Below are positions 26,434 to 57,279 of a DNA stretch of 64,000 nucleotides, piece by piece (position 1 is the first letter of the stretch; each line of letters starts with the position of its first letter). Location: contig OY725504.1 of assembly GCA_963281255.1 (NCBI GenBank), positions 3,348,001-3,412,000 on the forward strand. Direction: 5' to 3'. The position numbers and the translations under genes were made by a program. The notes beneath the pieces were generated by a model that was not told the origin of the DNA, did not search any database, and was given only the letters and a program-made list of their open reading frames with translations. The stretch comes from Aphrocallistes beatrix. Its lineage: Eukaryota; Porifera; Hexactinellida; Sceptrulophora; Aphrocallistidae.

Positions 26434-29400
26434 TCATACTTTTCCTAAGAATATTTTGTTGATCCTGCTTGCCTCCCAGGGGAGAAGAGGTGTGGTGAGA
26501 TGGACGGACGGCTTTTTAGGCTGGGGAGGTGGAGACTTTTCTTTGACACCTTCTTGAGGAAATTTGTTGAGTGCGTTCAATCTCAAACTTCGCATGTTCT
26601 GTATAAGTGTATCGGGCGGCATGAAGAAATTAGGTACTTGCATATCCTCTGGGATGTTCATCTTGATTGTGTCATCAGGTTCTAGCTCTAAGATGGGTCT
26701 GTGTCTCTCTTCACGATGCGAAACTTGAGGTGGTTGAATGTAAGTATTGCTTGTCAGATCGTCAACCCATTTTAAAATGTCTTCCGATTTCTCTTCTGTC
26801 TCCAAAATGTCCGAAATTATACTGACATCCGTAAGCGATTTGGGGCTGTAACAAACTTCATTATTTCCCTCGTAATCGTTTGAAAATGTATTAAGAATAT
26901 GATGCGTGTTATTTTCAGGATCAGTGCTATCCTGTTGAATGTGTATCTCTTCTGTCTCAAAAATGTTAGGTGATAAATTTCGCAGGCTTGTACTTTCTTG
27001 GAGATATGGTTCTTCCGTGCTCGCAATTGAAACAACTTCACTTCCGTTACAACTGAGTATTTCTGGTTCAGTGAATGCATGTGTGTTTACGTCTTCAAAC
27101 AGTGTCGGTTGGATTGGTATTTCTTCGTTTATATCTTCCAATGATGGAGTGTTTTCATCGAGTGGATATGTGTGATGGAATTCGTCCTCTCGAACTATCT
27201 CCTGCATTTCGTCTCTGTTGATGATAGATTCACTTCCGTCGTTTCTATCTGAATCAAATTGCTCAGACATACAAGGTGAATCAGGTATGTCTTGAGGAAG
27301 AAGAATTTCAACTTCAGTTTGTCTATCATCCGATGTCTGTTCCACTCTTTCTAAATTTAAGAGTGAGGGATCTGTTATTTCCGATTCAATTTGCTCTGTC
27401 AGGAAATGTTTGTTGAATAGTTCTCCCGTGTTTGTGCACTCGCTCTCAACATGTTTATCTAGCAGTCTGTCTACTCGACTCATCGTCAAGAGTGTAGGGT
27501 CATTAAACTCATCAAAACCTGAATGATTAAATGACGAGTCTGGGACTACTTCAGGGGGGTTAGAAATCTGATTCAGATTTTGCTTCAGGTTCGCTTGCAC
27601 ACGCTCCAAATCAGCCAAAGAGCTTTTCAGTCGTCTCATAAGAAACGATCCAGTCACATTAGCATCTGGTACTCCAGACATGTCCACTTCTACATCCTGT
27701 ATTACAATGGGGTTATGGAATCGGACTGGATTATCAATCAAACAACAAAGATCTCTACGCTTCCATTCTAACTTCTGCTCCTGTACCCTCACAGAAGAAG
27801 GAATGTTAAGCCTCTCCCTAGGCGTAGCTCGTACTTTTATCTGTCCCTGGCAAGATGACATGACATTCGCGATATTATACCACCCAGCTAGCTCAGGCAG
27901 TCCGTATTTCAAAGGAGACAGGTCAACTTTTGCTACTCCCATCAATTGAGCATGTGCAACATCAATTGACGCAGAATACCACAGTTTAACTTCGAGTCCT
28001 ACCATAGGTGAGAATATATCTTCTTCTATGTGCACTTCTTGTTGGCAATTCCAAACCGGTGACATGCTAACCTCAATTTTCTCAGTTCGAAATAAGAGAG
28101 AATCAGAATGAACAGTCACCTGAAGAAAGCCAGTACTTTCTGACAGTGAGGTTAAGTGGGCAGCAGTTTCTATTGATATTAGAACGGGAATTCCTATAGG
28201 AACTTGACTCTGTACTGTATCTTCATTTATATCACCTCCTGGTGACTGAGTTTGTGTCAGAATACTTTTATTGTGAAGAGATCTCTCAAGCATTTCCATT
28301 TCAGTTGGTGGGTGCATTGAAATCTCGATTTCTAAGCAGCTACCTCCGAGGGAGTTCACTCCTGGCTTAAACAAGGGGAATACACCAGACAACTGCGGTT
28401 CTTGATACTCTCGAAATCCACACATTTCAAAGAGATTTACGTAGGCATTTCCGATTAGAAAATCATCAATATTTGGCTTAGTAACTGGCACTTTTGATTT
28501 GGTGTTTGTCAGCCAAATTTGCACCTCAAATCTCTCCTCCTGCAAATACCACTCCAAAGCTGATGATGGAAAGACCTGGCAACCTTTCTTATAATCTAAA
28601 TCATATACAAATCTGTTTCCTTCACTTTTTCTGACAGAGAAAGTTGGCGAAAATGTAGTTTGCTTGTCATAGAATCTGTATCGAAGATAGCATAGGTTCT
28701 TATTTTTTTGTTGTGAGATCTTAGCTAGCCATAGACGACGAATGTTGATGTCAATTTCAAGGTTAGTTTCGGCTTCTAATTGCAAAGCATCGAACTTTAC
28801 AGGTCGCTCTATTTGATAGCCAAATTTATTCGCTTCGTACATAACCTTTTCCCTTTCTTCTATTGACGAGAATTCTACAGTCACCTCAAGTGCTCCTACA
28901 CACTTGCTACCTTTTCCATTCGGTGGTTTCAAAGAATACCAACCTCTGATCCCAGTGCTCTTGAGAATAAGCATTTCAAACGGTAGCGTGCATTCTGCTA
29001 TAATAACATGCGGCATATTGGAATGCGGTTTATTGCGCGGTGAGATGTCCTCTGGCATCGGAACGTGCCATATTTGGAAGGTGATAGTACTCTTGGATAG
29101 AGTTTCAGCGAGACTAATGGGAGAATGGTTGTCGATTACACTATGTGATAAAGAGAGCGGGATTTCTATTTCGTACAAAAAATTGGGGGAGAAAGTTGCT
29201 GCAATTGCTTTCGTTGTGTGAGTTTTCTTGGAAAAGGATAGCCGTACCATTACATAAGTGTTGCAGCCTGTTTCTAGTTCGTATCGCGAAATGTTCGTGT
29301 CAGATTTCGCAGCAAGTTCCAAAGCATCTTTGAGACCTGTCGCTTGCTTGATCTGCAGCTTGATGAAGACTTGGGGGTGGTTGCGTGAAGTAACAGCTGT

Positions 29401-32400
29401 AGGATCAGAAGGACTGTATTCTGGATCCAATTTTACAAGTTTGTACCTATGATACAGTTGAGATCATTTGAACCTGCAAAATTTCCTTGACAAGTATACA
29501 ATTTAGTTATTTACCTGACAGTAAGATCTAGCTGCCCACAGTTCGTGTTATCTGTGTAATGTGTTGTAAGGCTTTGCTCGTTCTCTACTAAATGCAGTGG
29601 TATTGTGAATGTCCTCACCGTGAAGCTACCCTCATGTTGCACCAGTGTCACCATCTCGCAGACCTTAGCTGTAGGCAGGTACCCACGTGCTAGAAGGTGG
29701 TTCTGTGTGTCAGGGTAGTAGTATCGCCGCCACAGTTCAAATTCGATCTGTGGCCTCCATGACCTGTAAAATTTAAATTACGCGTAATTAAAATGGTTTT
29801 ATAGTTAATCAATGAATCACATAATTAACCACGAAATTTCCGCCACTAAAAATGTACATTTATAGTATTTTTGGAATTAGCCGAATTTAGAATGAAACTA
29901 GTTCGCTTTTTGATGAAACTGAGTCACGAGAAGGTGACGATCTACCTTAAAAACGGTACGACGGTAGATGGAACGATTGCTGGTGTAGACATGACAATGA
30001 ACACGCACTTAAAGAATGTCAAACTGACACTGAAAGGAAGAGAGACACAGTCGTTAGACTTCTTAACAATCCGCGGTAACAATATCCGGTATTTCATTCT
30101 CCCAGAAAACCTGCCTTTGGACACACTTCTGATTGATGATTCCCCTTCTGAGAAGAAGAAAAGGAAGAACATGGCGCCGTTTGGCAGGGGGAGAGGGAGG
30201 GGTCGTGGACGTGGGCGGGGCAGGGGGAGAGGAAGAGGGGGCAGGAGATAAGTTTTTGGGTTAACCAACCCTTGATAGGTTGTCTCAGCTCATGCTTCTC
30301 GTTTTGTCGGGTATTATTAGATCGCTTGGTTAACATTTTGAATAGCAGATATTTTTATTTTCTTGCTCAATTGTTATTAAATCAATTTCCCATTAACTAA
30401 GTATATTATATTCTTCAATAGATTCTGCCATTAGTCGAGTGGGGTTCTTACACAGCTAATGTCCAATGGTTAGAAGAGGACATTAATAATCATTGCTATT
30501 TGAAAAAAATTAATTTAAGCCAAACAAGACTAATTTGTATTTTACTTAGTGTATTTACTTACAAGAAACAAACCAATATTACAGACGAGCTAGTTGATCA
30601 CTTAATGGCATCCCAAAGGAAAAAGGATCTGCAAGAAGTTCCAAGTCCAGCACAAATAGAGGCTGAAGTGAAAGAGTTTGTAAAAGCTATTGAAGAAAAC
30701 AACTCCAAAGCTTTTACGAGAACATTCAAAATACTGCAAAAAACGACAAAACAAACTGGATTAAATCCAGACCAAATCTCAAGAATAATCTTAAAAATTC
30801 CTGAAATTAAAATCAAGCCAGAACGTGCACTCTCTCTTTTACTCCCTAATGACACTGTGCTAGTTAAGTCAGTCATTAGCATCATCTGCTGGTTCAACTC
30901 TCTTTCAGTGGAGAGCGATAAAGAAATAGATACGATGGCTGCTATCATTACTTGGGTGATCACCATTTATCCTTATATCGAAGATCAGCTTCAACTCAAC
31001 CAATACTATGACCTCCTGATGCATTATATCTCTTCATACTACCTTGCACCGTACATTTGCCACCTGTTAGCTTTCATGACAAGAGCCGAAGACGTGAAAA
31101 CGTATCGCGTAATGAAGATATTTCGCATGAACAACAATTCTTACTTCCTGCCGAAAGAGTTTGATGGCCTTCTAATCTTATATAAGCGTCTACGAACGGA
31201 CGATCTGAACCTTAACGTTTCAAGCGTTGTTAACCATATTGTACTATTCACGTGTCCTGATGAGAAAATGGTAGCCGAAATATGCAACCTTCGTGTTAAG
31301 ACAAATGATTCCGCAACCAGATTACTTAAAGAATCGCCGATATTCGCCAGACGACCTATCGAGCTTCTATCTAAAAAGGACCAGGCTTATCTTCCTCAAA
31401 ATTGGTACAATCTGTTTAGTAGTGAGACTGTTGACTGTGAACACCCCATGCTGACTCAGCTCTCAGCTCTACTCTTCAATCAAGGACACGCCTCACTCAG
31501 CCGAATTTTATTCTGGATCGACCAAGCTATCTGCGCTTCCAAACAGAATTGCGACCTTTTACCAAACAGAATGGTGAATTTTCTCGATTTGAATCTGTTT
31601 CCTACTCTGCCTTTCCAAATTGAGATGGATTTTACATCTTTAGTTCTAACTTTGACCAAAATAGCCGATTTTATCAATCAATCCATCCCAACTTTAGGAG
31701 AGGTTGTGAAAGCACTGCTTCCCTGTGACACGTATCCCCACGAAATTCTCTTGCAATCGCTTAAGCAAATCGACCTTCTCGCCTTTCTTGAGCTGAAAAG
31801 TTACCTCATAGATCGGATAAGATGCGAGCTAATGAAACCGATAAAAAGTGGGGCGTTTTTATTAGGACTTTTCAGTAGTTTATGCGACATGATGAATAAT
31901 TGGTTATCTCGCAGCAATACAAACTTGATTGTGAATCCAGACAAACTGACAGACATCTCTGCAATTCTGAACACAAGTGCTCACCACAGTGAGAACCTTG
32001 CATACGCATTCACTGACTTTGTTGAGTTCGCATTTATGCTGGGTAAAGAAATCCTATACGATTCTGATTCCCACTTGATAATCCAAGTTGCGGTCATTCA
32101 CTTACTGATCCAGATAGCACAGATTCCACTGAGACACCAGATCGCATTGCTCTACCTGCCACACCCTAATTTGATATATAAGCTTTTCCTCACTCACTCG
32201 CCGATAATCTTCAATTGTCTTTTCAAATTACTCGCCAATTATTTTCACGCCTTTGAGAAAGTGAAAGTATTATCACCCAAAGTATACCACAGCAGTTCCA
32301 TCCAAGATCAAGTCGAGGCGTTCAATCAGATTATGGTCGTCATACTGTACAAGCTCCTACCGAGTCCAGATATACCGATTAAGATGCAGAAACCTGTGTA

Positions 32401-35400
32401 TACCATTCCTGAATGCGTCCTGGAGCATTTCAAGGTAAGGAAAGAGAGCAATACACTCCTGATATGCAACCATTGGGCGTTGCGTGGGTATGTGGCGCTG
32501 TATTTTGAGACCACACAGCCAGCCATCGAATCTAGAAGCATAATTCACCATCCCTTGTCTATCCTGGAGAGCAAAGCTAAAACGAATCAATTCCTATCTT
32601 TCTTGGAGGAGCATTGTCACTTGACAGGACTTACCGACTTTTGGAGACTAGTGAGAAACGATCATTAAGATTATAACCTGAATATTTCATATCAATAAAC
32701 GAGTAGTCTTAACTTTTAATATACTTTATTTAACCGATTTTCACATAGAAATGTTATTGTGGAATTTAATACTTGTTGTTTGTAGCTATTTTATAACCTA
32801 GGTACCAAATAACAACTTTGAACAATCTGAAAATGATCCAAAGGGTGTTACTTTTCGTGTTTTTATTGTGTATGTTATTGGGAGGGTGCAAGTGTGATGA
32901 GAAAGATGAGGAAGAGCCGATACTTCAAGCTGTCAAAAATGATGACATTGAAAAAACAGAGGATTTACAAGTCAAAGTGAATGTAGAGCCGCATTTAGAG
33001 GTAGGATATAGCATTAAATGAAACAAATAATATAAAATGAAGCTTTTTTGATATTAAAATTTGCGTCTTATTTAGGAAGGAGATGGAGAAATGACGAATA
33101 AGGAATTGTCGATGAGTGAAGTTATAAAAAATAGAATAACCGACGCGGTTATAAACAGAATTAGGAAGCTAGGAAAAGAATTAACCTCAACTGAAGAGAC
33201 TGAAGGAATTGCTAAAGAATTTGAAGACAGTGTGTTGAAACGCATGGACGACCTAACGATACAAGACATAGTAGATTTGTTGTCTGAAGTAATTTCTAAA
33301 GACGAAGAGATCAAACGAATGATTAATGAGCTATATGAGAGTGGTGTTAGTAATGGAGACCTGATCGAGATGCTTAAAATTAATGGAAATTTCATATTGA
33401 ATCGAATTAAAGAATCAAGATATAGCTCAGAAGGGGAAAATGTTGAGGAAGTTAGCGAACAGGAAACGTAAGTTGAATTAATATCATTACAGTAAACAAA
33501 AGAGCATCCTCCATTCCATCAAACGGTTGCCTAGTAACATAAGGACACCCTTGACGGTTCCCTAGCAACATAAGAGCATCTACATTCCGTCGAATGGTTC
33601 CCTAGCAACATAAGAACATATAAATTCCGTTGAAAGGTCTCCTTTGCAAAATAAGAACATCTACATTCCGTTGAATGGTTCCCTAGCAATATAAGAGCAT
33701 CTACATTCCGTCGAATGGTTCCCTAGCAACATAAGAACATCTACATTCCGTTGAAAGGTTCCCTAGCAACATAAGAACATCTACATTCCGTTGAAAGGTT
33801 CCCTAGCAACATAAGAGCATCTACATTCCGTTGAAAGGTCCCCTTTGCAACATAAGAACATCTACATTCCGTCGAATGGTTCCCTAGCAACATAAGAACA
33901 TCTACATTCCGTTGAATGGTATCCTAGCAACATAAGAGCATCTACATTCCTTCTAATAGTTTCCTAGCAACATAAGAGCACAATACATACCACAAACTTG
34001 AGCTGACTGTTCTTTTTCGTAAAATTGGAACTATGACTGTTCTTTTTCGTTAAATTGGAACTATGACTGTTCTTTTTCATTAAATTGGAACTATGACTGT
34101 TCTTTTTCGTTAAATTGGAACTATGACTGTTCCTTTTCGTTAAATTGGAACAATGACTGTTCCTTTTCGTTAAATTGGAACAATGACTGTTCCTTTTCGT
34201 TAAATTGGAACTATGACTGTTCTTTTTCATTAAATTGGAACAATGACTGTTCCTTTTCGTTAAATTGGAACTATGACTGTTCTTTTTCATTAAATTGGAA
34301 CTATGTTCTTTTTCATTAAATTGGAACTATGACTGTTCTTTTTCGTTAAATTATAACTATGACTGTTCCTTTTCATTGAATTCGGACTATGACTGTTATT
34401 TTTTCGTTAAATTGGAACTATGACTGTTATTTTTCATTAAATTGGAGCTATGACTGTTCTTTTTCGTATATTTGGACTATGACTGTTCCTTTTTTTTAAA
34501 CTCGTACTCTGAATTATTTTTTAACTTTGACTAATACAAAATGAATACATTTATATTGTTTGCTCATAACATAATAGTTTTAACGAATTTATAATGTCAT
34601 TGAACGCTATTTAGTGACATTATCCAAGCTGTCGATTCAGATAAAACTGATCTTTCCGAATTGTGTCCTTCCGACACACAAACAGACACCTCTAAACCAC
34701 CAGATACAGAGCAGATACAACTAACCATGCAGGATATCGAGCAGATTAATTCATTACTCCATCAAGCAGGATTTGATTCAGAATTGTTACCCGAATCTTC
34801 ACAGTTGTCCGCTGCTTTCGAATGGGCTCTTAACCAAACTCTCTATTCAAATTATTCCATTCTCCTGTATAGACTCATATTCGAAGATAAATTGGTTTCG
34901 CGAAATTTGTCACTCGCTTTACAATTAGCAACACTTTTAGCAGATAAGGGCATACCCTCAGGACACAATGTATTAGCGTATATTCACAAAACAGGTAAAG
35001 ATAAACTTCATAAGATTAATTTCAACCAATTAACCCAGACATTTCTCATTATAAATCAGGTTACAGTCTATTCAATGAGAGCAGTGTTAACAATACAAAA
35101 CCGAATGCACAGATCGCATTGACTTACTACACATTTAGCGCGCTTGGGGGAAACATATTCAGTGAGATGGCAATGGCCTACAAACACCAGATTGGAGTGG
35201 GAGTGCCCGCCTCTTGTCAACTGGCTCTAGTCTACTATCAGCGGGTGGCGAAGAAAATGCTGAAACAGGTTATTAGACGCATATTCGGAATAACTGAACT
35301 TAATTTGTTGTGAGTTTGATCATCGTTAATTGTAACTAGATTGGCTTGTCTGGTGGTCCTGCCTTGTATAAGAACAGGCTCAGTGACATCACAGAAGATT

Positions 35401-47400: not shown

Positions 47401-50400
47401 ATATTAGACTATTTATGGCAGCTAAGTTCGTCTCTCCAACAAGATATCCTGATGTCCCGAGTCAGGAAGAAACCCGATTCATCCGCCGTGCAGAACGCGC
47501 TATTGTAGATGCGAAGGGCAAGGCTCGTCCCGAATTGAAAGGCGAACACGGCTGGACACAACTGGGCATGTGCGAGTCTAGCTTCTTACACCCATCTTAC
47601 GTGTCCAACAATATTGAGCGGAGAAGCGCGCATGAGTTGAGCATCGAATCGTTCCGCAGGCAGTACGAACTGCCAGGGAAGCCAGTCGTGTTGACAGGAT
47701 TGATGAGAGATTGGGCAGCGAAGAGGAAATGGACGATAGAAAGATTGACTAAAAAGTACCGCAATCAAAAGTTCAAATGCGGTGAAGATGATGACGGGAA
47801 TAGTGTGAAGCTGAAAATGAAGTATTACAGATATTACGCGCAGACAAATCGAGATGACAGTCCCTTGTATATCTTCGATAGCGGCTTTGGGGAGCATCGA
47901 AAGAAGAAATCCATCCTGGAGGATTATCAGGTACCAGACTATTTCGCTGACGATCTATTCCGGTATGTCAGTGAGACTCGACGGCCACCGTACCGCTGGT
48001 TCGTAATGGGGCCGCCCCGGTCTGGGACGGGAATTCACATCGACCCTCTTGGGACTTCGGCCTGGAATGCGGTCGTACACGGACGCAAGCAGTGGTGCAT
48101 TTTCCCGCCTAACACCCCGAAGGCGATGGTGAAACCGTGCACAGGAGAGGGCGGGAGTCAGCGCTCAGAAGCGATCTCTTGGTTCCGCTATGTATACCCC
48201 AAATGCCTCTTGTCGTCATGGCCGAGCGAGTTTCGGCCGTTCGATTTCATCCAAGAAGCAGGAGAGGTGGTGTATGTGCCTGGGGGTTGGTGGCATGCAG
48301 TCGTGAACCTTGACTTGAGTGTAGCAGTCACTCAGAATCTCGTCTCCCCTGTCACTTTCCATCGGGTCCTGCCGAAAACGTTGAGAGGCAGACCGAAATT
48401 TGCCGAAAAATGGTTAGAAAACCTACAAAAATATCGCCCAGAAGTTGCAAGTGAGGCGGAACAGATAAACTTAGATGCTAACACTGGTTTGCCGACAAGC
48501 AGCTCCAGTTCTTGTAGCAGCTCGAGTTTGAGCAGCGATAGCGAGAGCTACTCAGATAGCGAGGCCGAGGGTGAGGGGAAAGGGCGGGACAATCCGCAAG
48601 ATTCGAGTATGTCCGAATGCGGGAGACGTACACAAGGAATGAAGCGACCAATACAAACCACACATCTTTCAAAATCTGTTCCTGACACGAAGAAAGTGAG
48701 AGAATCAAGTTTAATAGATGAAGATAGTAGATAGGGATTTACTCGTTACTGCTAACTGTTATAATATGCCATTTCAGTCTAATTGACAGATCATGAAGCT
48801 TCTATTAGTGAATTTGGATGCATTTTGAAAAGAAAATTGATTATTACTTATTCAAATGATTACTCACTTTATTTTTGTTCTGCATTTTGTCTGTAGTTTT
48901 AAAGTTGAAATTTCCTTCAGTAATGTTGTCTTCTAACTTGCTAATTTGTTCCAGAGAGCCGAGTGCTAACAGAGCGGAGATGAAACCACGATTCTTTCCA
49001 GTGAGTGGGTCTGTTATAGGGTAACATCCATTTTCGCTAATAATTGGGTACTGTCCCTACGAATTATAATGGCATATATTATATCATTACATATAACACG
49101 AATTAAAATAATTAGTTAATTTGCCTGTAGAGATTGTGTGGTGTTTTCAGGGTGTGTGAAACTGATGTAGAACTGATGAAGTGAGAGTTGAACAAGACCG
49201 ATCAACTCATCTCTGACTCTATTTCGATTAGTCTCCTTATGCCACACTTCTACCACAGCCACTTTATTACACAATCGTGTTGATAGCACTTCGTGTGTCA
49301 ATTGAACAGGAAATAATTGCCTAGAAATTAGGAAATAAACATTGCATTTTGAAGCTGATGCTACATTTTTAAATAATACCTAAAGGCGAAGTTGGGAGAT
49401 GCATTTTCCCAGTGCACCGTGCTATGTGGTGATGGATCGGCACAGAATATCTTTGCCACTAAATAGGGGTTAACACCTCTCCAAGGACATTCCTTCCGAT
49501 TGATCGCTATCTCAGTACCATCTGATACCAGTAGCAACAGGTGTAGCCATCTGGCGTTGTCAGGATGAGTGTGTGCTGGAGAGTTTTCTGATTCGTAACT
49601 GCTAGACTCTTCGTCTGTTGAAGTGTATTCTTCTTCCACGTGTGAAGGAGAAGCAAATGTTACATGTTTGTCTTTATTCACTTTAATTGGAGTCCTAGGC
49701 GTATTCATCTCATCTAAAATGTGTATTCTTTAATTCATAGCTGAGTATTTCTATTTATTTAAGCTCACCTTTTTTTGTGCTCTCTTTATATTCCTTTACC
49801 TTCTTCGTAAAGTGAGCTGCTTCGCCAGCTAACTCTATGCTGGCTTCTAACTGAGTTGGGTGCTGCTCTTTCTGGAGGTGTGAAGGCACACAGACTTCAA
49901 GCGAGGCATTCAAATCGAGGTTTTCAGATTCTAACAGATCTCTGAGGGGAATTGATGCGACACCTGTTCATTCAAACTGTCTAAAAATTAGTTAATTATT
50001 CTGGATTCAAAGCTACACTACCTAAATAAATCGCTTTTTTCTGTCCCAGGTTCTTTCTATAAATCTTGAATTCAATTTTGCTGTTCCACCATTTCCTAAT
50101 CATTCCGCCTGTTAAACACAGTGGCACAACGGTTCTATGGTTGAATAGGATGTTTCCCTCTCCGTCTACTTTCCTAGTGATAACCCGAACGCTCTCTTCA
50201 GGTCTCCGAGTAGTCCGTTTCCGAGTGTCTGCGGTTTCTTGTTGGTCGAGTTGGTACTCCACGATATAAGTGCATCTAGATGTGGAAACGAATAAATGGT
50301 TTAATTCTGGTTAAAATAACGAACGTATCTGCTCACCTGTAGATTCTAGAGATCTGTGTGGGTGGGGTTATTGGTGCGTTCAGGGTTTCCAGAGGAGAAT

Positions 50401-53400
50401 TGAATATTAGTTTACCGATTTGCACCCTAGCTGCGTAAACTCGCCCCAGTTCTGTGATCTTGTCTATTCCCAGTCTGTCTCGAATTGATTCATAACTCTG
50501 TTCACTACTTCCTCTTTGTGGAGAAATTGCATTAGTTTTGTGAGGTAATATCTTATTAGTTTGAAAAGGAGTGTGCTTATCTTGAGTAGGTATTTCCTCC
50601 AGGACTGATGCAGTTTGTTCTTGAAAGATACCGGTCTCGAGTATCAATGGATCATCAAATGGTAATTCTCTATAAAATTATCTTTAATCATACTTAAACC
50701 AAAATGAGAATCTCCATATTCTTACATTTACTTAAAGTAGTATCTTACTAACAATATTTGATTTCTGTCTGCAGTTAAGTTGTCGCAGTAGAGGATATTT
50801 TCAATTAGCGCGGGATCTCGTACCAAACTCTCCTCAAGGAATTGGCTATATTCTCCTGGTAAGGCTTGTTCACCCCCTGTGGTCTGAGTGGGATCCTCTG
50901 GTAGCAGTAGTCCTGCAAGGATGCTATATATTAGCATGTGTCGTGGAATTAAATAAATAAATGCCTACCGATTACTGTGTCAATTTCTGTTAGATTTGTG
51001 CTGTGTTGTGATGTTGGATACGTTTTGCTTCCATACGCGTTGCCATTATAACGAGTATGGTGGTTTGCAGCAGAGTTAGGAAACGGCTGCTGATACTGAT
51101 TGAGCTTTTCCTGAGATTCGAGTAAGGACTCTACCATGTTCTTCCTCAGTGATTCTCCCTTCTCTATCAGTAGTGACAGAGAGTTATCTGATTCAAAAGC
51201 GGGATCTAAACACACAATAGATACCTATGTATAAATAACTGTACATAGCATATTATTAGATTTTTTTATTATTAGATTTAATGGCTAACCTACCACCCAT
51301 GTTCGACTACATCCGTAAAGAGATTGAAATTAAGGCGCACCCTATCAGTGATGACTACGAACTGACGAATATCGAGTTGGGTGTAGGTCTTAGTGGGAAA
51401 GTATATAAGTGCATAGAGCGAGCAACAAAAGCGGAAAGAGCAGTCAAGGTATTAAACTCGTCAAAAAACGCAAGAAATGAAATGTCAATCCACTCACAAG
51501 TCTGTCACCATGTAAATATCGTAAAGGTCATATCTATATATGATGAAAATCGCGAAGATACGAAAAAGGTGTACATTGTAATGGAGATCATGACTGGTGG
51601 AGAATTGTTTGATAGAATCAAAGAGAAGGAATTCTTCACAGAGAGAGAAGCGGCAAAAATGGTACGACAGGTTTGCTTAGCAATCAGCCACTTGCACAAG
51701 AACGGAATCGCACATAGAGATGTCAAACCAGAAAACTTTCTTTTCGCAACGAAAGAAGAGAATTCTATCTTGAAGCTTACAGATTTCGGATTCTCGAAGA
51801 ATTACCGCGAATCAAACTTAACCTCACCCTGTTACACGCCTTATTACGTCGCACCAGAAGTGTTAACAACCGCGAAATATGACAAAGCATGCGACATGTG
51901 GTCAGTAGGTGTGATAACCTACATCATGTTATGCGGGTACCCACCCTTCTACTCACATTCTGAGAGAACCTTTTCACATGGAATGCAGTCACGTATCAAA
52001 CAAGGCCAGTATCACTTCCCTCAAGATGATTGGAAAAACATCTCAAAAAGCGCGAAAGACCTCATCCACAATCTTCTGAGAGTAGACCCTAAGTCTAGAT
52101 ATACGGTTGAACAGACGCTAGCTGACCCTTGGATAGCTAAGTACCAGGAGGTCCCTTTAACACCACTAACGACTGGCTCGATGCTAGGCACGAAGCAGAA
52201 TTGGCCGGAGATCTTGGACACCTTCCAGGTGTCTCTATCTGAAATGCGACTTCGAGATAATATTGTGTTAAAACCACTCTCAGAGAGTAATTCTCTGTTT
52301 AAGCGCCGACAGAAGAAGGAAGGTACAGCGTCGGAATTAGTGGAAAAGAAAGAATTAATTGACTAGGACATGTATAGATTATAGGTATATTATTCAAATT
52401 CCTCAACACACTACATGTACTATACTAACTAGGATTGTGTATTTTATTATATTATTACCTTTTTCAGTTGTATTTACCAATGTTTTTACATCTTCAAACT
52501 CGGTGCGCTTATATAACCGAGGTTTGTGGGACTTTATTGGGATTGGTGATTCTTCAAAACTCTGTTCTCTTACGGGCGAGAGAATGAGATCGGGATCGGG
52601 TGTAGGGATTCTTAATTGTTTAGTTGGTTTAGGCTTGCGTAGGTTCGGAATTGGGAAACCATCTTGCAGTGCAGAGGGAATCATATCAAATTGATCATCA
52701 AAGTGCGGCTCTTTCTGTACTACGCCTACACAATGTTATCATAAAGTAGTGATGATATAGAGCATTTTATCTCAGGCAAAATTTTTGTAATCAACAGGGT
52801 ATAATTAATCTTCTTTGAGTCGGTTACGAATCACTGATTACCTATCATTGTGAGTTTAGCCTTTATCCTCAAGTTTGCAATGTGTCTCCTCGTGTTGTCG
52901 TATAGTGGAACAATATCTGTAATATAATCCTAAATAATAGAACAATGAATGGCGTACTGATTAAAAAAATGTAGCAGCTCAACAAATAAATATGCAATGT
53001 CGGAGTTACATTGTTAATTGGATGACTCGTAATTGTAAGTTAATAGGCTTGCTGGAAACCTGAGCTGAAAGACCAAAAACACGTGAGGCGCTCATTTATA
53101 TAATAGGATTATACATATATATATATATTCAAATCTTTGAGAGAGAAATAATTATTGCTAGCATACTTCTATTAAGACGCGTTGAAGACAAGGTAGAATG
53201 GGAACCAGCCCGAGTATCCTCACAAATGATGAATTGGATGAATTGCACCAAGAGACCAAGTTCACTCATCATCAAATAAAACGACTGCACATACGCTTCA
53301 ATGCGTTGGATAAAGAGAATAAGGGTCATCTCCAAATGAAAGACCTCCAATTGATACCAGAGTTGGCACTGAATCCTTTGGGAAGTAGGATCATTGAATC

Positions 53401-56400
53401 GTTTTTTGAGCTCAAAAGTGAACCGCATTCTGACATGATGAATTTTAAACAATTCGTTTTGACGCTAGCTACATTCCAAAGCGCGAGAAAAGGGAAACCA
53501 GAAGAATTAGCAGAAATAACCGATGCGAAAATAGACTTTATATTTAAATGTTATGATGTCTCGAACACGGGGAGAATAACAAAGAGTGATTTGGTCCATA
53601 TACTGCATTGCATGGTGGGAAACCACGTTTCGGAGGAACAAACGTTAGCAATCGCTGAGAGAACACTCCGTGAAGGGGATATGGAAAAGGATGGACAACT
53701 CAGCAAGGCAGAATTTAGGGAGGCGCTGAAAGATATAGACCTTGAAGAGAAGATGACTATCAGATTTTTAGCCTAATTCAAAGTCTGAGTGTATATTCGC
53801 TGTTGGTTCTTTTAGCTTACAACCTATTGATGTATTTGTTTGTTTGTTTGTTGTTTGATTTCAAGTGTTTATTTACATAATTACGAGTGAGTAGAAATAT
53901 ATTTACTGTAGCAAACTGTTCTTAGTAACATAAATATAAATATTTTAAATAATATCTCGTATATAATATTTACTAATAAAAATTCGTACCCTTTCAAGCA
54001 AGGATTCCACGTTTATCAGACTACCTTGTCCGACTATCTTCTTATTCTTTCCACGCTCCTCGATAGCGTCTAGCATTAGAGAACCAGTGTCCACAAGATA
54101 CGTCTTGAACTGTTTGGGGCCTGATTTGATCGCATAATTCACACCTAGAGAAACAAACAACATTACCACTGGTGTTCCATATGCTACAATTCTTAAAATC
54201 TACAAAAACATTTGGCTGTTGTAAATATCTTGGTACCATACAAACACAGCAATGGAACTTTGAAAGAAGAAATTTTTCAAAAGAGATGAGAGCCAGATTG
54301 AGTAAATTCAAGTTTCTACCAGGAGAAACAATGCATATTGTCCGCCCGTATAGACCAGTCGCAGACAATGTAGTTGTATTCAACGTCGCAATGAAATTCA
54401 CTAAGTTTGAAGTTAAGAACTATCTTGAACAGATATACGGATTGAAAGTCGCTGAAGTAAATACAATTATCAATGTAGGTTAGTTATTACGTATCTTGAA
54501 AAAATGGATACAAGTATCAACAAGTTATAATACGAATGGAAATTTAGTGGATTTTTCTCTATATCTTAGGTGAAACTGTGGTTGGAAGAGACGTTAATGA
54601 TGGACGAGTAAAAAAACGCAGGTATTTAGACCAAAAACTTGCGTATGTAGTGCTAGCAGAAGGAAAGTTCGTGTATCCAGAGGTAGAGTCAGCATTCTTC
54701 TCGAAAGAACAGCTACAAAAGCATATGCGCGGGGTGGACGATATCAAGGATTTCGAGAAATCTAAGAAAGATCCTAAAAAGAAGACGATTAAGAGAACTG
54801 TATCTAGATTTGCTCCTAAATAAGATATTAGATTAGTATTTTGAAGTCACTTATTAACGAATTAAGAATTGGGTTTCAATTAATTCAAATTTGAAAATCA
54901 AATCGATAAATGGATGTCGAACATTTTAAATTTGTGAATAATTTATTTTCCTGAGATAGTGTTATCAAATTTAGCATTTAGAAATGTCCAAATCTCTTCA
55001 GCAATACCAACTGCGAATGTCTCGCTTGAGGAAGATCATTTTCGGCGAGGTAGTTAGACCGAATCAAGATGTGAAGATAGCGCGACTTTTCGCACGTCGA
55101 CCATGGGAAATGACAATGGATGATTATTACCCGCCTTTTAAGAAATTTGATAAGTTACTTTGGAAACTGAGGTGCATGGGACTGTACCATGATGAGCATT
55201 GGGACTTTACGAATTGGATCTTAACGGAGAGGGCTAAGACGGGGAAATTGAAACTTAAAGGAGAGGGAAAGAGAGAGATGCATAGGAAGGAGGACTCTGA
55301 AATTGCAGTTGAGGCTGCAAAGAAATAACTTTATTATACAAGTAGTTCTTAATAAACCGATACGAGCATTTATCTCCTTTTCCCGTTAGAAATTATTGAG
55401 AAACTGTTCGGGTGCAGAATAGTCGAAACAGTTCATCATACTAAACATTTTAACACCTTTTCTAGACCACCGAATTCAGCTTAGGAATATTGGGATTCAA
55501 TACGAGGGATGATAAACATTAAATAAAAATTAACTAGGTTAGGTTGTTAGATGAAATTCACATTGCACACTAAAAAATTGAGTAGGGACATAGTTTATAT
55601 TTAGTTTTAAATATACGTATAATATTTATGCGATACTAAAATGAATATATCTCTAGTCTAGTTTAATATCAAATAGATATCAATTCTAATATATACAGAA
55701 TTAGCATAATTTGTACGATTTATAAATTCTAAAAATATTTTGCATCTAAAGAAACAATGGATCTGAGCAATGGTTTGCAGGAAAACTCGAAATTTCTCGA
55801 TGTGCCCAACATCCAATACAAACTCGAGATCCCCAACCTGGTAAGCTATGACCCCTCAGAAGCAGAAGAAACTTTCGACAGACTGCAACTAATGAGTAAT
55901 GACGAGAAAGGTCTAGAATTTGATAATGAATCCATTCTAAAGAAGAGTATCATTACGCCTGATTTCATGCGGAGGGAAAGCATACCTCCTTACAAGGTTA
56001 GCAAGTATAGACTGAAGAAGCAGCGGAAGATAGAGAGGGAGAAGAAAACAGGAGAAGGTAAAGTTCTGTGCACCTAGTGTGTATTTATCTTATCCAAATT
56101 CCGCATAGCATTTCAAAACTTGTATTTAGGTTGGCATGAAATGCACGCACCTGAAATGACCGAAGAACTGGCAAACGAGCTGAAACTGTTGGAAATGCGA
56201 GGCTCACTCGACGCTAAAAGATACTACAACGAAAAGAAATCTAAAAAGAAGCCTAAATTCTTTCAGATCGGACGCATCATAGAAGGTCCTGGCGAGTTCT
56301 ATTCTAGTCGATTGACGAAGAAGGAGAGAAAACGTACAATGGTGGAAGAATTGTTAGCAGATTCGAAATTTCAACGCTACAATAAAAAGAGATTCTTGAA

Positions 56401-57279
56401 GCTACAATTAACGAGGAGGCGTGGGAAATTCGGGTATAAGAACAAGTATCGAGGGAAATATAGATTCTAATTCATTATAGTATTCAGTTTTGTTTATTAA
56501 AATAATCTTTTGCTATGTAACTCTATATTGAGACAGAATGACGTCATGATGAATTGTTACTACGTAACGGGGATTATTAACACTTGTTATTAAGAATATT
56601 CGCTATAATTTGATTAGATTTGGAGATGCTAGGAATAATAGAGAGTCTGACCATCTCCCAATTGATGTGGTTTTCACTCCTACTCTGCTTCGGACTGGTC
56701 GGCTGCCTGGTGCCAATACTCCCCTGCACCTACCAATGGTTCCTGCTCCACGATCAAGTTAAACAGCAGAAGGCGAAGGATTAATACTAACTTTTATTTG
56801 GTTTGGTTTTAAATTAATTTTGTTTCAACTCACTACAAATAGAGGTCACATTGGTAGATTGCAGGATCTGCCCCTCGTGTAGAATGGGCGGGTAGAGTGT
56901 CTTGTGGCAAGGCTCTCCCCACCAACGCAATCTAGAGAAGAACACACAATACCATACTGCTGTAAGGATCTTATCAATGTCATATGGTGTACCTAATGGC
57001 TAAGCCATCTGGGGGATTCACTGGCAGTCTCCAGTCGACTTGTCCTAAAGTGACGATTAGTGTGCCTCTCAGGGGCCCCTGGACTGAAGGGGGGAGGGAA
57101 AGTGGGTCGATAGAACCGGTTACAACTGCTTGTAAAGTTGGAAGCGATTTGCCGGCTATCTTTAGTGACTTCTTCCGTTTTCGCTTGACTAGTTTTTTGC
57201 CTTGGTTCTTCTTTGGACTAACAAAATTCAGAGTTTTACTACGCCCGCTGTCCTTGTCACTTTTTGAAATTTTAGGCAT
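26434..57279 (-). CDS. C2CD3: C2CD3, centriole elongation C2-domain protein; host of 12-13 nested genes
   Basis: Seventeen minus-strand exons join in phase to 2140 residues (vertebrate about 2350): 56993-57279, 56834-56931, 53990-54144, 52842-52929, 52459-52725, 50969-51205, 50753-50912, 50337-50669, 50022-50275, 49769-49963, 49380-49713, 49125-49320, 48868-49056, 47167-47311, 46887-47109, 29515-29763 and 26434-29446. Family landmarks occur in order: [12 protein letters not shown] and RWWGE at the N-terminus, SGPKQF, a [12 protein letters not shown]2 core, LGLV-like [50 protein letters not shown], then the large last exon with three further C2-type domains and a closing [20 protein letters not shown] motif. 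C2CD3 acts at the distal centriole and is needed for ciliogenesis. The 46887/29763 junction spans 17.1 kb but keeps phase (AC|G) and family order. Confidence 0.88.
29892..30251 (+). CDS. SNRPD1: Small nuclear ribonucleoprotein Sm D1
   Basis: Single exon, 119 residues, as in other animals. The ATG at 29892 gives the invariant [13 protein letters not shown] start; an upstream in-frame extension has no ATG. Sm1 and Sm2 motifs are clear ([15 protein letters not shown] and [20 protein letters not shown]). The tail is a run of about ten Gly-Arg dipeptides, the target of symmetric arginine methylation and SMN binding. The protein is part of the heptameric Sm ring of spliceosomal snRNPs. It sits only about 130 bp from a C2CD3 exon on the other strand. 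Confidence 0.97.
30605..32668 (+). CDS. CENPI: Centromere protein I (Mis6 family)
   Basis: Single exon of 687 residues. The frame is open about 35 codons further upstream but without ATG; the ATG at 30605 starts [17 protein letters not shown]. The body is an all-helical repeat protein with the CENP-I/Mis6 core: a segment around residues 90-200 ([39 protein letters not shown]) and LLILYKRLR. Length and profile match animal CENP-I (about 750). CENP-I belongs to the constitutive centromere-associated network (CENP-H/I/K/M) that bridges CENP-A chromatin and the outer kinetochore. The family is divergent, so the call rests on the core region. Intronless. Confidence 0.82.
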   Translation: MASQRKKDLQEVPSPAQIEAEVKEFVKAIEENNSKAFTRTFKILQKTTKQTGLNPDQISRIILKIPEIKIKPERALSLLLPNDTVLVKSVISIICWFNSLSVESDKEIDTMAAIITWVITIYPYIEDQLQLNQYYDLLMHYISSYYLAPYICHLLAFMTRAEDVKTYRVMKIFRMNNNSYFLPKEFDGLLILYKRLRTDDLNLNVSSVVNHIVLFTCPDEKMVAEICNLRVKTNDSATRLLKESPIFARRPIELLSKKDQAYLPQNWYNLFSSETVDCEHPMLTQLSALLFNQGHASLSRILFWIDQAICASKQNCDLLPNRMVNFLDLNLFPTLPFQIEMDFTSLVLTLTKIADFINQSIPTLGEVVKALLPCDTYPHEILLQSLKQIDLLAFLELKSYLIDRIRCELMKPIKSGAFLLGLFSSLCDMMNNWLSRSNTNLIVNPDKLTDISAILNTSAHHSENLAYAFTDFVEFAFMLGKEILYDSDSHLIIQVAVIHLLIQIAQIPLRHQIALLYLPHPNLIYKLFLTHSPIIFNCLFKLLANYFHAFEKVKVLSPKVYHSSSIQDQVEAFNQIMVVILYKLLPSPDIPIKMQKPVYTIPECVLEHFKVRKESNTLLICNHWALRGYVALYFETTQPAIESRSIIHHPLSILESKAKTNQFLSFLEEHCHLTGLTDFWRLVRNDH
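32833..37102 (+). CDS. SEL1L: SEL1L, ER-associated degradation adaptor with Sel1 repeats
   Basis: Eight exons join in phase to 821 residues: 32833-33000, 33076-33467, 34615-34994, 35060-35268, 35340-35668, 35786-36218, 36485-36769 and 36833-37102. Exon 1 is a signal peptide ([19 protein letters not shown]). Exon 2 is an acidic helical region; no fibronectin-II domain is seen, unlike vertebrate SEL1L. From exon 3 on, Sel1 (TPR-like) repeats follow the family order, e.g. [41 protein letters not shown] and [15 protein letters not shown]. The last exon has a single membrane segment ([21 protein letters not shown]) and ends soon after, lacking the Pro-rich tail of mammals. SEL1L scaffolds the HRD1 ubiquitin ligase in the ER membrane. 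Intron 2 holds two minisatellites; intron 5 has a GC donor. Confidence 0.95.
33500..33981. repeat. Minisatellite, 40 bp unit, about 12 copies
   Basis: Tandem 40 bp units containing CCTAGCAACATAAGAACATC followed by TACATTCCGTTGAAAGGTTC run head to tail through SEL1L intron 2. Copies differ by a few substitutions, with C/T at the CCGTCGAATGG versus CCGTTGAAAGG positions and G/A in AAGAGCAT versus AAGAACAT, giving mixed higher-order variants. Spacing is exact at 40 bp over most of the array. Confidence 0.95.
34005..34510. repeat. Minisatellite, 30 bp unit, about 16-17 copies
   Basis: Tandem 30 bp units of GACTGTTCTTTTTCGTTAAA plus TTGGAACTAT follow the 40 bp array after a 25 bp gap. The centre is exact; the distal end (after about 34300) decays with indels. 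Because the unit is a multiple of three, the minus strand holds a 108-codon open frame of ten-residue repeats ([10 protein letters not shown] type), which I treat as an artefact of the array. Confidence 0.95.
35669..35785 (+). other. GC-AG intron in SEL1L
   Basis: The donor reads AATAG|GCAAGT and the acceptor TATATAG|AGCG. Joining restores [12 protein letters not shown] with correct phase and Sel1-repeat continuity. No GT donor nearby restores the frame. Confidence 0.8.
37467..42313 (+). CDS. SHANK: SHANK scaffold protein (FERM-F0-like, ankyrin, SH3, PDZ, SAM)
   Basis: Two exons (37467-38280 and 38589-42313) encode 1512 residues. Order: an N-terminal ubiquitin-like SPN region (residues about 15-110), ankyrin repeats (about 120-375; e.g. 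[32 protein letters not shown]), SH3 (about 436-492; [15 protein letters not shown] ... GWFAGNCV), PDZ (about 505-600, carboxylate loop [10 protein letters not shown]), a long acidic/Ser-rich linker, Pro-rich segments ([16 protein letters not shown]) and a C-terminal SAM (about 1446-1512; [23 protein letters not shown]). MSPPEEF near residue 1378 matches the PPxxF Homer-EVH1 ligand. All domains of vertebrate SHANK are present. SHANKs link membrane receptors to Homer and actin at postsynaptic and other cortical sites. Confidence 0.97.
42314..43012 (+). other. SHANK 3' flank, no gene seen
   Basis: About 700 bp of AT-rich sequence between SHANK and the NHL gene, within the large C2CD3 intron. 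No exon or repeat is supported on either strand. Confidence 0.5.
43013..44239 (+). CDS. Coiled-coil plus NHL-repeat protein (TRIM-like without RING or B-box)
   Basis: Single exon, 408 residues, ATG at 43013. Residues 1 to about 110 form a charged coiled coil ([16 protein letters not shown]). Residues about 165-405 are NHL-like propeller repeats ([39 protein letters not shown]). No RING, B-box or CxxC cluster precedes the coiled coil, and the upstream 700 bp offers none. It resembles the C-terminal two-thirds of the TRIM-NHL protein at 21776-23659 and could be a truncated relative or a separate scaffold. NHL propellers bind RNA or protein; which applies here is unknown. Confidence 0.8.
   Translation: MHFESKRRHLEKDSLNRLERDITLKKDEVKRRYNTYKENLELEERELNKILDQIYANALARLNERNKLIANLNSCCAKLGDCKNNRLVDTYEQSIAPLNEKIYELRDDCIIAPNIRLDWNEEAIESTGNLCSFRVTSAPYKERIYPEWTAVENGEGENEMLEPNSLILANGEILVSDLSRNAIQIFNKQGAYLSSINHPNLHRPTYMHAYKNSLFVSCDGKEEKVLKFVRTQGGEWEYENKIIVGHSIAALNVDDNGVLYIFLSEMFKVFAVETACMKKMVEFELKTKHFVESRTQIMDAKLHNGEWYILFANTEYPLQCFDKNGKLTRTVIPSQLLKGALHFCMDPDGNIITTEEWKGQVSVFTNNGEFISSIGSSGDMEKPRGVDIDEDGRVFICDLKSYDMLSCY
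44240..44749 (+). other. Intergenic stretch between NHL and GIY-YIG genes
   Basis: About 510 bp, AT-rich. It contains the likely promoter of the downstream gene (TATAAATAG at about 44587). Nothing else is recognised. Confidence 0.4.
44750..46462 (+). CDS. GIY-YIG nuclease-like protein with Penelope-type C-terminus, novel N-terminus
   Basis: Single exon, 570 residues. The last 160 residues resemble the endonuclease of Penelope-like retroelements: a Cys cluster ([14 protein letters not shown], about 414-427), a paired GIY-YIG core ([15 protein letters not shown], about 455-469), an Arg/His helix ([14 protein letters not shown]), then [20 protein letters not shown] at the C-terminus, the usual E..WI..L....P.GLN ending. 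No reverse transcriptase precedes it. Residues 1-400 are not recognised; they include a CxxC-x16-CxxC zinc-ribbon-like pair (CLTC ... CVWC, about 227-247), an acidic patch and helical regions. Codon use and lack of stops suggest a maintained host gene. Function could be DNA or RNA processing; this is inference. It lies inside the 17 kb C2CD3 intron. Confidence 0.75.
   Translation: MSEPASQDLTYTPLDRAKHQFENAKIAFEKTILSQEKVFDEAKGIPDFLSDSFGISRVLLAFPRGATFLDELMRSNRTSVYEQFGKTEEKPESKTRFNLGFNRGARKQSDPSQDTEKVLEIAVRIHFYTDSNIVTIVDHASNLVVDCGIVPSDMPKDKFWPHFFSRSMEMVPKLKYASVIIDNSTFINSIDIAYAYGVPKKRPVSDPAPVTAVSDSEDEEVEDKSSCLTCKSVRHRTNPSYRRCVWCRFTIDSEFEGVKKVHILMDILQHLKCIPNLSDKEKCVLADLVVCVISQHKVKHFALLSLRSKPGVIYETLRNLKEDIYSLLYFLVKKEVTEKLHQIIPIGMERTFYAEFEMIGVPKGKVDRYRLNIEVFEKLHSIWEEYFTADCLEKILYYEATCEIYFYPLNVGTIPCNKKNCKNCEMMVEKKHFTSTQRRKIYEVSDSINCNARCIIYLLTCTICRKQYVGSSSKELQARLEDHRSMARQGRGTSADVHAFYEHAKNRENVPKDKRCKVDKHQVISLKDDPMKIYELIGIEITKPHKLADRESHWIRELESAVPHGLNEFY
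47415..48734 (+). CDS. JMJD6: JMJD6, JmjC-domain lysyl hydroxylase/arginine demethylase
   Basis: Single exon, 439 residues (vertebrate about 403). JMJD6-specific blocks are conserved: [40 protein letters not shown] and [20 protein letters not shown]. The 2-oxoglutarate/Fe(II) ligands are present: His and Asp in TGIHIDPLG and the distal His in [10 protein letters not shown] poly-Ser tract follows the catalytic core (about 360-385), as in vertebrates. JMJD6 hydroxylates lysines of splicing factors such as U2AF2 and acts in the nucleus. An N-terminal extension of about 25 residues precedes the usual start. Nested in C2CD3 intron 13 (47312-48867), opposite strand. Confidence 0.96.
   Translation: MAAKFVSPTRYPDVPSQEETRFIRRAERAIVDAKGKARPELKGEHGWTQLGMCESSFLHPSYVSNNIERRSAHELSIESFRRQYELPGKPVVLTGLMRDWAAKRKWTIERLTKKYRNQKFKCGEDDDGNSVKLKMKYYRYYAQTNRDDSPLYIFDSGFGEHRKKKSILEDYQVPDYFADDLFRYVSETRRPPYRWFVMGPPRSGTGIHIDPLGTSAWNAVVHGRKQWCIFPPNTPKAMVKPCTGEGGSQRSEAISWFRYVYPKCLLSSWPSEFRPFDFIQEAGEVVYVPGGWWHAVVNLDLSVAVTQNLVSPVTFHRVLPKTLRGRPKFAEKWLENLQKYRPEVASEAEQINLDANTGLPTSSSSSCSSSSLSSDSESYSDSEAEGEGKGRDNPQDSSMSECGRRTQGMKRPIQTTHLSKSVPDTKKVRESSLIDEDSR
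49057..49124 (-). other. GC-AG intron in C2CD3
   Basis: On the minus strand the donor is CTACAG|GCAAAT and the acceptor ATTCGTAG|GGACAG. The join gives [15 protein letters not shown], matching the C2CD3 family at this point, in phase. No GT donor near the exon end keeps the frame. Confidence 0.7.
51281..52366 (+). CDS. MAPKAPK2: MAP kinase-activated protein kinase 2/3-type Ser/Thr kinase
   Basis: Single exon, 361 residues. The kinase domain starts at [18 protein letters not shown] (glycine loop) with catalytic Lys in [17 protein letters not shown] and APE. The activation segment [16 protein letters not shown] is the MK2/MK3 signature; the proline-directed site is Ser-Pro instead of the usual Thr-Pro. 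After the catalytic core, VPLTPLTT matches the second p38 site in the autoinhibitory region, and a basic FKRRQKK cluster resembles the nuclear-localisation/MAPK-docking tail. MK2-type kinases act downstream of p38 in stress responses and mRNA stability. The N-terminus lacks the Pro-rich SH3-binding segment of mammalian MK2. Nested in C2CD3 intron 5. Confidence 0.93.
   Translation: MANLPPMFDYIRKEIEIKAHPISDDYELTNIELGVGLSGKVYKCIERATKAERAVKVLNSSKNARNEMSIHSQVCHHVNIVKVISIYDENREDTKKVYIVMEIMTGGELFDRIKEKEFFTEREAAKMVRQVCLAISHLHKNGIAHRDVKPENFLFATKEENSILKLTDFGFSKNYRESNLTSPCYTPYYVAPEVLTTAKYDKACDMWSVGVITYIMLCGYPPFYSHSERTFSHGMQSRIKQGQYHFPQDDWKNISKSAKDLIHNLLRVDPKSRYTVEQTLADPWIAKYQEVPLTPLTTGSMLGTKQNWPEILDTFQVSLSEMRLRDNIVLKPLSESNSLFKRRQKKEGTASELVEKKELID
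53198..53776 (+). CDS. CHP1: Calcineurin B homologous protein (CHP-type EF-hand)
   Basis: Single exon, 192 residues (CHP1 is 195). The start MGTSPS is an N-myristoylation signal, as in CHP1. The sequence follows CHP1 throughout: [16 protein letters not shown], a degenerate EF1 ([12 protein letters not shown]), [17 protein letters not shown], canonical-looking EF3 ([12 protein letters not shown]) and EF4 ([12 protein letters not shown]), ending [13 protein letters not shown] proteins bind Na+/H+ exchangers and regulate membrane traffic. Nested in C2CD3 intron 3 (52930-53989), opposite strand. Confidence 0.92.
   Translation: MGTSPSILTNDELDELHQETKFTHHQIKRLHIRFNALDKENKGHLQMKDLQLIPELALNPLGSRIIESFFELKSEPHSDMMNFKQFVLTLATFQSARKGKPEELAEITDAKIDFIFKCYDVSNTGRITKSDLVHILHCMVGNHVSEEQTLAIAERTLREGDMEKDGQLSKAEFREALKDIDLEEKMTIRFLA
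54181..54823 (+). CDS. MRPL23: Mitochondrial ribosomal protein L23 (uL23m)
   Basis: Exons 54181-54478 and 54570-54823 join in phase to 183 residues. The N-terminus is a basic, uncharged-to-positive leader suited to mitochondrial import. The L23 fold is recognisable: [34 protein letters not shown] and the continuing [18 protein letters not shown]. The C-terminus is Lys-rich. It is part of the large mitoribosomal subunit near the exit tunnel. The ATG lies 36 bp from a C2CD3 exon on the other strand, so the C2CD3 acceptor region overlaps the 5' flank and first codons of this gene. Confidence 0.85.
54984..55328 (+). CDS. MRPS33: Mitochondrial ribosomal protein S33 (mS33)
   Basis: Single exon, 114 residues (vertebrate 106). 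The conserved [19 protein letters not shown] block opens the protein, followed by [37 protein letters not shown] and a basic GKGKR-like tail. It is a component of the mitochondrial small subunit. Same strand as and 160 bp downstream of MRPL23, inside C2CD3 intron 2. Confidence 0.92.
   Translation: MSKSLQQYQLRMSRLRKIIFGEVVRPNQDVKIARLFARRPWEMTMDDYYPPFKKFDKLLWKLRCMGLYHDEHWDFTNWILTERAKTGKLKLKGEGKREMHRKEDSEIAVEAAKK
55329..55756 (+). other. Gap between MRPS33 and the Fcf2 gene
   Basis: About 430 bp of AT-rich DNA within C2CD3 intron 2. No exon, hairpin or repeat is supported. Confidence 0.4.
55757..56470 (+). CDS. Fcf2-type pre-rRNA processing protein (DNTTIP2-like)
   Basis: Exons 55757-56057 and 56130-56470 join in phase to 213 residues. 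The second exon is a full Fcf2 domain: [20 protein letters not shown], the [12 protein letters not shown] block, [35 protein letters not shown] and a basic tail. The length equals yeast Fcf2 (about 217), unlike vertebrate DNTTIP2 (about 750), which carries the domain at its end. Fcf2 acts in early cleavages of pre-rRNA in the nucleolus, for small-subunit production. It shares C2CD3 intron 2 with two mitoribosomal genes. Confidence 0.9.
56626..56784 (+). CDS. Small membrane-protein ORF, 52 residues
   Basis: ATG at 56626 to TAA at 56784. The composition is far less AT-rich than its surroundings. It encodes one hydrophobic segment ([20 protein letters not shown]) followed by a Trp-containing stretch and a polar, basic tail ([10 protein letters not shown]), as in small single-pass membrane proteins. 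It lies 49 bp from C2CD3 exon 2, in the same intron and strand as MRPL23, MRPS33 and the Fcf2 gene. I do not recognise the family. Supporting signs are composition and topology only. Confidence 0.45.
   Translation: MLGIIESLTISQLMWFSLLLCFGLVGCLVPILPCTYQWFLLHDQVKQQKAKD

Follow-up and report, generated by a model that had tools for sequence, protein, structure and literature searches.

Nested genes, whose coding regions lie within introns of a host gene, are well known. In the ctenophore Hormiphora californensis, 2357 nested genes were reported in 1654 hosts, a mean of about 1.4, and a figure legend of the same report describes a host with four guests, two of which are doubly nested (PMC8527503). 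In the glass sponge Aphrocallistes vastus, 2432 genes (12.4%) are nested, introns are short, and 12409 single-exon transcripts were obtained for 19578 genes (PMC10282587). C. elegans has 567 opposite nested pairs, such as ceh-10 in polq-1, which on average are less co-expressed than neighbours, and a short transcript of the host can be triggered by transcription of the guest (PMC12274878). Further, the antisense intronic guest 2mit in Drosophila timeless2 is conserved from Drosophila to honey bee (PMC3786989).

In this study, a window of 64,000 bp (C18:3348001-3412000) from a genome of 100.5 Mb in 28 contigs was analysed, in which a minus-strand C2CD3 gene holds 12 recognisable genes plus a 52-codon ORF in five of its introns, with all 13 coding spans on the plus strand. 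Similar to the H. californensis genome of ~110 Mb, protein genes lie in introns and several guests share one host (PMC8527503); however, compared with ~1.4 guests per host there, the C2CD3 nest comprises 12 to 13 guests, six of them in one intron and all antisense. Of the nested-gene definition of that report, the coding-region part, a guest coding region within one host intron, holds for 13 of the 13 guests, and splice sites and phase fit a joining of the host exons on either side; the ctenophore method required transcripts inside one intron (PMC8527503). Given the ctenophore mean, a geometric law predicts hosts with at least 12 guests 0.003 times in 1654, a value that is a rough scale only because real tails are fatter than geometric. 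A. vastus, probably of the same sponge class, likewise shows nested genes, short introns and many single-exon genes, but neither a number of guests per host nor a nest in C2CD3 was encountered in its report (PMC10282587). The C. elegans pairs share the opposite-strand intronic guest, but are treated singly, as opposed to 13 guests in one host (PMC12274878), and 2mit in timeless2 is an antisense guest like those found here, but one guest only (PMC3786989). In a literature search of partial coverage, a host with this many guests was not found.

The original prediction called this arrangement extreme, which holds for 12–13 guests in one host but has to be tempered, as hosts with several nested genes have been described in genomes of this type. 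The observation itself is real and correctly described; it belongs to a known phenomenon, gene nesting, at its extreme end, the number in one host being the unusual part. The limits of gene nesting can be examined cleanly at this natural locus, which also suggests that introns may serve compact genomes as space for genes.

The host gene C2CD3

The host was modelled as 17 minus-strand exons (Table 1), from the start codon at 57279 to the stop codon ending at 26434, which were joined by script at hand-chosen splice sites, in family order, into one in-phase frame of 2154 codons with one stop; both the exon number and the two gene ends agreed exactly with the original prediction. Of the 16 introns, one has GC-AG borders and the other 15 have GT-AG. 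Candidates from an automatic exon scan, which was trained on the long ORFs of the region (C2CD3 exon 17 included) and listed none lying within long ORFs, overlapped with 14 exons of the 17. With GTTAGT, exon 7 has a poor donor, so its end may be off by a few codons.

Table 1. Host exons and guest genes of the C2CD3 locus (window positions).
Feature	Position	Strand	Remarks
C2CD3 exon 1	56993..57279	-	PF25339 start; start codon at 57279
C2CD3 exon 2	56834..56931	-	in-phase model, PF25339
C2CD3 exon 3	53990..54144	-	in-phase model, PF25339
C2CD3 exon 4	52842..52929	-	PF25339 ends here
C2CD3 exon 5	52459..52725	-	in-phase model, alignment with reconstructed C2CD3
C2CD3 exon 6	50969..51205	-	in-phase model, alignment with reconstructed C2CD3
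C2CD3 exon 7	50753..50912	-	in-phase model; end uncertain by a few codons (donor GTTAGT)
C2CD3 exon 8	50337..50669	-	in-phase model, alignment with reconstructed C2CD3
C2CD3 exon 9	50022..50275	-	model, alignment with reconstructed C2CD3, genome search
C2CD3 exon 10	49769..49963	-	model, alignment with reconstructed C2CD3, genome search
C2CD3 exon 11	49380..49713	-	model, alignment with reconstructed C2CD3, genome search
C2CD3 exon 12	49125..49320	-	GC donor; model, alignment with reconstructed C2CD3, genome search
C2CD3 exon 13	48868..49056	-	model, alignment with reconstructed C2CD3, genome search
C2CD3 exon 14	47167..47311	-	model, alignment with reconstructed C2CD3, genome search
C2CD3 exon 15	46845..47109	-	model, alignment with reconstructed C2CD3, genome search
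C2CD3 exon 16	29515..29763	-	joined to exon 15 over 17,081-bp intron
C2CD3 exon 17	26434..29446	-	terminal; C2 domain; stop codon
SNRPD1 (SmD1)	29892..30251	+	intron 15
CENPI	30605..32668	+	intron 15; frame open from 30422; putative start at first ATG
SEL1L	32833..37102	+	intron 15; 8 exons assembled by eye
SHANK (Ank-SH3-PDZ-SAM)	37467..42313	+	intron 15; 2 exons
NHL-repeat gene	43013..44239	+	intron 15
GIY-YIG gene	44750..46462	+	intron 15
JMJD6	47415..48734	+	intron 13
MAPKAPK2-type kinase	51281..52366	+	intron 5
CHP1-type EF-hand gene	53198..53776	+	intron 3
MRPL23	54181..54823	+	intron 2; 2 exons; start codon 36 bp past host exon 3
MRPS33	54984..55328	+	intron 2
FCF2	55757..56470	+	intron 2; 2 exons
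52-codon hydrophobic ORF	56626..56784	+	intron 2; candidate coding frame

C2CD3, a ciliary gene, encodes a centriole distal-end protein, and the identity of the host as C2CD3 was supported by a match of PF25339 (C2_C2CD3_N; E=5.1e-29, 101.4 bits vs. a cut-off of 27) to residues 61–208, which runs over exons 1–4 and hence across introns 2 and 3. In the Pfam scan of the spliced protein, which covered 1804 of the 2154 residues, PF00168 (C2) matched three stretches (E=8.6e-11, 42.4 bits vs. a cut-off of 22). When six excised pieces were searched, a C2 match was obtained with one (exon 17), at 19.4 bits, under the Pfam cut-off of 22, and the exon 14–16 piece, covering the 17-kb junction, gave no match in Pfam. 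The PDB search with C2CD3 returned no solved relative at E<=1, only an unrelated chain (E=0.73).

In the 100.5 Mb, at E<=0.01, PF25339 matched only C2CD3 exons 1 and 3 at this locus, exon 17 gave one match, at its own locus, and the exon 9–16 piece gave eight, all at its own locus and in order. As judged from these sequence searches, which covered exons 1–4 by way of PF25339 and exons 9–17 directly, C2CD3 is a single-copy gene. The possibility, raised in the original prediction, that the two halves belong to different paralogues was not supported, as each part searched occurs once in the genome, here and in order. Consistently, one colinear alignment with human C2CD3 was obtained (1831 columns, 27% identity, 482 bits), which passes the exon junctions, although the human sequence was a reconstruction made after the window had been read and not a database entry, so that the alignment counts as support and not as proof.

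Given that exons 14–16 match no Pfam family, the 17-kb junction between exons 15 and 16 rests on splice phase, genome uniqueness and the alignment with the reconstructed human sequence. Since this intron is so long while guest-free introns measure 55–116 bp, and Pfam is silent over the junction, two or more genes might be considered, with exons 1–15 and 16–17 translated apart or joined by trans-splicing only. However, the exon 15 donor AT|GTAAGG and the exon 16 acceptor TTTTACAG|G fit in phase across 17,081 bp, the alignment with the reconstructed sequence crosses the junction with a gap of only 10 residues, and neither part was found elsewhere in the genome, which makes such a division very unlikely. 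An assembly artefact is scarcely credible: nothing was found in its favour, host exons and guests alternate with splice sites and frames intact at many places, and the 144 kb analysed around the locus contain no N.

Guest genes and intron lengths

The 12 named guests all have open coding frames on the plus strand, and their domains or PDB relatives are those expected. SNRPD1, CENPI, JMJD6, the MAPKAPK2-type kinase and the CHP1-type gene were identified by PDB proteins. In detail, the SNRPD1 guest matched SmD1 with 176 bits over 119 of 119 residues, the JMJD6 guest JMJD6 with 460 bits, the kinase MAPKAPK2 with 325 bits, and the CHP1-type guest calcium-binding protein p22 / calcineurin B homologous protein 1 with 143 bits, while the CENPI guest matched CENP-I at E=1.9e-11 and PF07778 at E=2.8e-17. 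The other seven were identified by domain. SEL1L, assembled by eye from eight pieces that follow AG and are followed by GT or GC, gave 821 residues with Sel1 repeats (98 bits). The two SHANK exons join in frame and encode ankyrin, SH3, PDZ and SAM domains; its top PDB relatives were designed ankyrin proteins, and SHANK3 (9.7e-21) and SHANK1 PDZ (1.1e-16) were matched as well. The remaining domain matches were NHL (E=2.4e-8), GIY-YIG (E=7.3e-6; no PDB match at E<=1), Ribosomal_L23 in MRPL23 (E=1.1e-10), and the Pfam matches of MRPS33 (E=2.7e-12) and FCF2 (E=8.7e-34). The 52-codon ORF (56626-56784) matches no Pfam family and is at most a candidate gene. Taken together, the frames, domains, PDB relatives and intron positions support a single C2CD3 host that carries a dozen antisense guests, distributed over five introns. 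The original statement that the guests are functionally unrelated applies to most of them; the three in intron 2 that could be named, MRPL23, MRPS33 and FCF2, all relate to the ribosome.

Single open frames were found for 9 of the 13 guests, which would be expected if retrocopies had landed in C2CD3 introns. Against this, SEL1L has eight exons and SHANK, MRPL23 and FCF2 have two each, and single-exon genes are the rule in the published glass sponge (PMC10282587). Moreover, a genome search for second copies, which covered three of the 13 guests, all single-exon, found only distant relatives of SNRPD1 and JMJD6 (best other matches 32 and 35 bits) and no other match of CENPI at E<=0.001, so that no intron-bearing parents were found for these three. 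Guest introns and the lack of close second copies of these three thus indicate that simple retroposition does not explain the nest, and a retrocopy origin is improbable.

The C2CD3 introns differ in length according to whether they hold guests. The 11 guest-free introns are 55–116 bp long, whereas the five guest-bearing ones measure 1060, 1253, 1556, 2689 and 17081 bp; that is, introns are long only where guests sit, and guest coding spans fill 55–87% of each long intron. Most likely, it is the guest genes that account for the existence of the five long introns. Successive guests are separated by 155–952 bp, with one gap of 2546 bp, when host exons are counted within the gaps. In each long intron, 36, 75, 103, 128 or 268 bp separate the host exon from the first guest start codon, and 49 to 382 bp lie between the end of the last guest stop codon and the next host exon. 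Start codons at 36–128 bp leave little room for a promoter within the intron, and, judging from this spacing, guest leaders, promoters or tails may overlap host exons antisense. AATAAA or ATTAAA occurs within 250 bp past the stop codon in 7 of the 13 guests, a count that is uninformative by itself.

Several minor features of the window were also recorded. SEL1L intron 2 contains two adjoining minisatellites (window 33556-34500), a 40-bp unit repeated 10.5 times and a 30-bp unit repeated 16.7 times. One GC-AG intron was found in C2CD3 (49125) and apparently one in SEL1L (~35667). MRPL23, MRPS33 and FCF2 (54181-56470) are adjacent and co-directional. A TRIM-like gene with a B-box and NHL repeats (21779-23671, minus strand) lies just downstream of C2CD3, and NHL repeats are likewise present in one of the guests (43013-44239). 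No RNA families or tRNAs were found in the window.

Strand bias and surrounding genes

The description of the guests as all antisense holds for 13 of 13, but is less striking against the surroundings. In 144 kb of C18, 33 of 42 pairs of neighbouring coding ORFs share their strand, a proportion that overstates gene pairs since some neighbours are exons of one gene; eight of the co-directional pairs lie within the nest, and outside it 25 of 34 neighbours are co-directional. As neighbours are mostly co-directional, few block insertions, about five, could suffice for a single strand. The sole other background sample, C1:2000001-2200000, is too gene-poor to judge strand runs, with seven coding ORFs in 146 readable kb (54 kb being N), compared with 43 in the 144 kb.

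The bias might also reflect selection, whereby same-strand guests add splice and poly(A) signals to the host pre-mRNA and only antisense insertions survive. The chance of finding 13 independent guests on one strand is about 0.0002, and opposite-strand nesting is common in animals (PMC12274878, PMC3786989). However, with five independent blocks a single strand has a chance of 0.06, and the antisense strand in particular one of 0.03, and parallel nested genes occur in the ctenophore (PMC8527503) and apparently in a myosin gene of this genome, so that selection against same-strand guests is a possible but rather doubtful cause.

In that myosin gene on C10, an 8-kb gap (within C10:235101-243500) separates consecutive head parts and contains three ORFs of 352–412 codons on the host strand plus a shorter overlapping one on each strand; two of the three share a Cys-rich start, and one is NHL-like by eye. 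The gap is possibly a second nest in parallel orientation, and its ORFs, being mostly on the host's own strand, suggest that antisense is no rule. Six myosin heads of the genome each cover profile positions 2 to 679 within a single open frame.

Upstream of the window, a run of 13 plus-strand ORFs (window -37617 to -5433) with often small gaps shows an operon-like layout. This run, from -37.6 to -5.4 kb, presumably holds RPS3, DHX8, GPAA1 and ERGIC2, and we take its members to be mostly unrelated housekeeping genes. The exon scan beneath it gave three weak minus-strand candidates (totals 6.1–7.1, -37 to -9 kb) and a fourth (14.2) at -7.9 kb, opposite a 218-codon plus-strand ORF. With these four candidates only, a second host under the run was not evident in the scan, indicating that in this region unrelated genes can be densely arrayed on one strand in the absence of nesting.

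The guests could also form one plus-strand block resolved by spliced-leader trans-splicing, with C2CD3 exons threaded between its cistrons and both strands read end to end. The common strand of all 13 guests, their short gaps save one, the co-directional runs nearby and the adjoining MRPL23, MRPS33 and FCF2 would fit this arrangement, and a trans-spliced leader of ~37 bp was reported in a glass sponge (PMC10282587). On the other hand, acceptor-like sites lie just upstream of the start codon in 5 of the 13 guests, compared with 18% in shuffled sequence, which is a mild enrichment; leaders were present on only 4% of the glass-sponge reads, and the word operon appears once in the main text of that report, in the reference list (PMC10282587). 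The threaded operon is therefore considered unlikely.

Transcription and origin of the nest

Based on these results, the locus is probably a single-copy C2CD3 gene whose long introns carry other genes, in a compact animal genome that most likely comes from a glass sponge, with the host transcribed as one pre-mRNA, the guests expressed independently, and the guests originating as blocks. The host would be transcribed as a minus-strand pre-mRNA of ~31 kb, from which the guests would be removed as intron, while plus-strand transcription would express the guests independently. Their leaders and promoters would lie in the 36–268 bp beside host exons, or run antisense across those exons, and the cost would be convergent transcription. 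As for the origin, some five blocks, each comprising one to six genes, probably entered the introns from co-directional runs, by DNA-level rearrangement and not by mRNA copying. Quite improbable, by comparison, is that a plus-strand multi-gene block, which includes the only close copies of essential genes such as SNRPD1 and is interleaved cistron by exon with C2CD3, makes the 31 kb, read on both strands, a switch between housekeeping and cilium building; if it were so, production of C2CD3 would require silent guests or a setting that tolerates convergent transcription.

With a single pre-mRNA, transcription of the host needs RNA polymerase to cross a dozen opposing genes, among which are the only close copies of SmD1 (a core splicing protein), JMJD6 and CENPI. 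With many guests in one host, transcriptional interference is measurable here. Further, a gene finder that forbids nesting would split C2CD3, so gene losses reported in such genomes deserve a check in which nesting is allowed.

A glass sponge is the likeliest source of this genome, judging from its size of 100.5 Mb, its many single-exon genes, a COX1 of non-bilaterian appearance and the mitochondrial codons. In the mitochondria of Hexactinellida, AGR is read as Ser and TGA as Trp. On the mitochondrial contig of this genome (C28, 17,996 bp), COX1 has TGA in frame as well as 16 AGA codons; several of these AGA codons presumably stand at positions that are usually Ser, and others at positions usually Gly or Asn.
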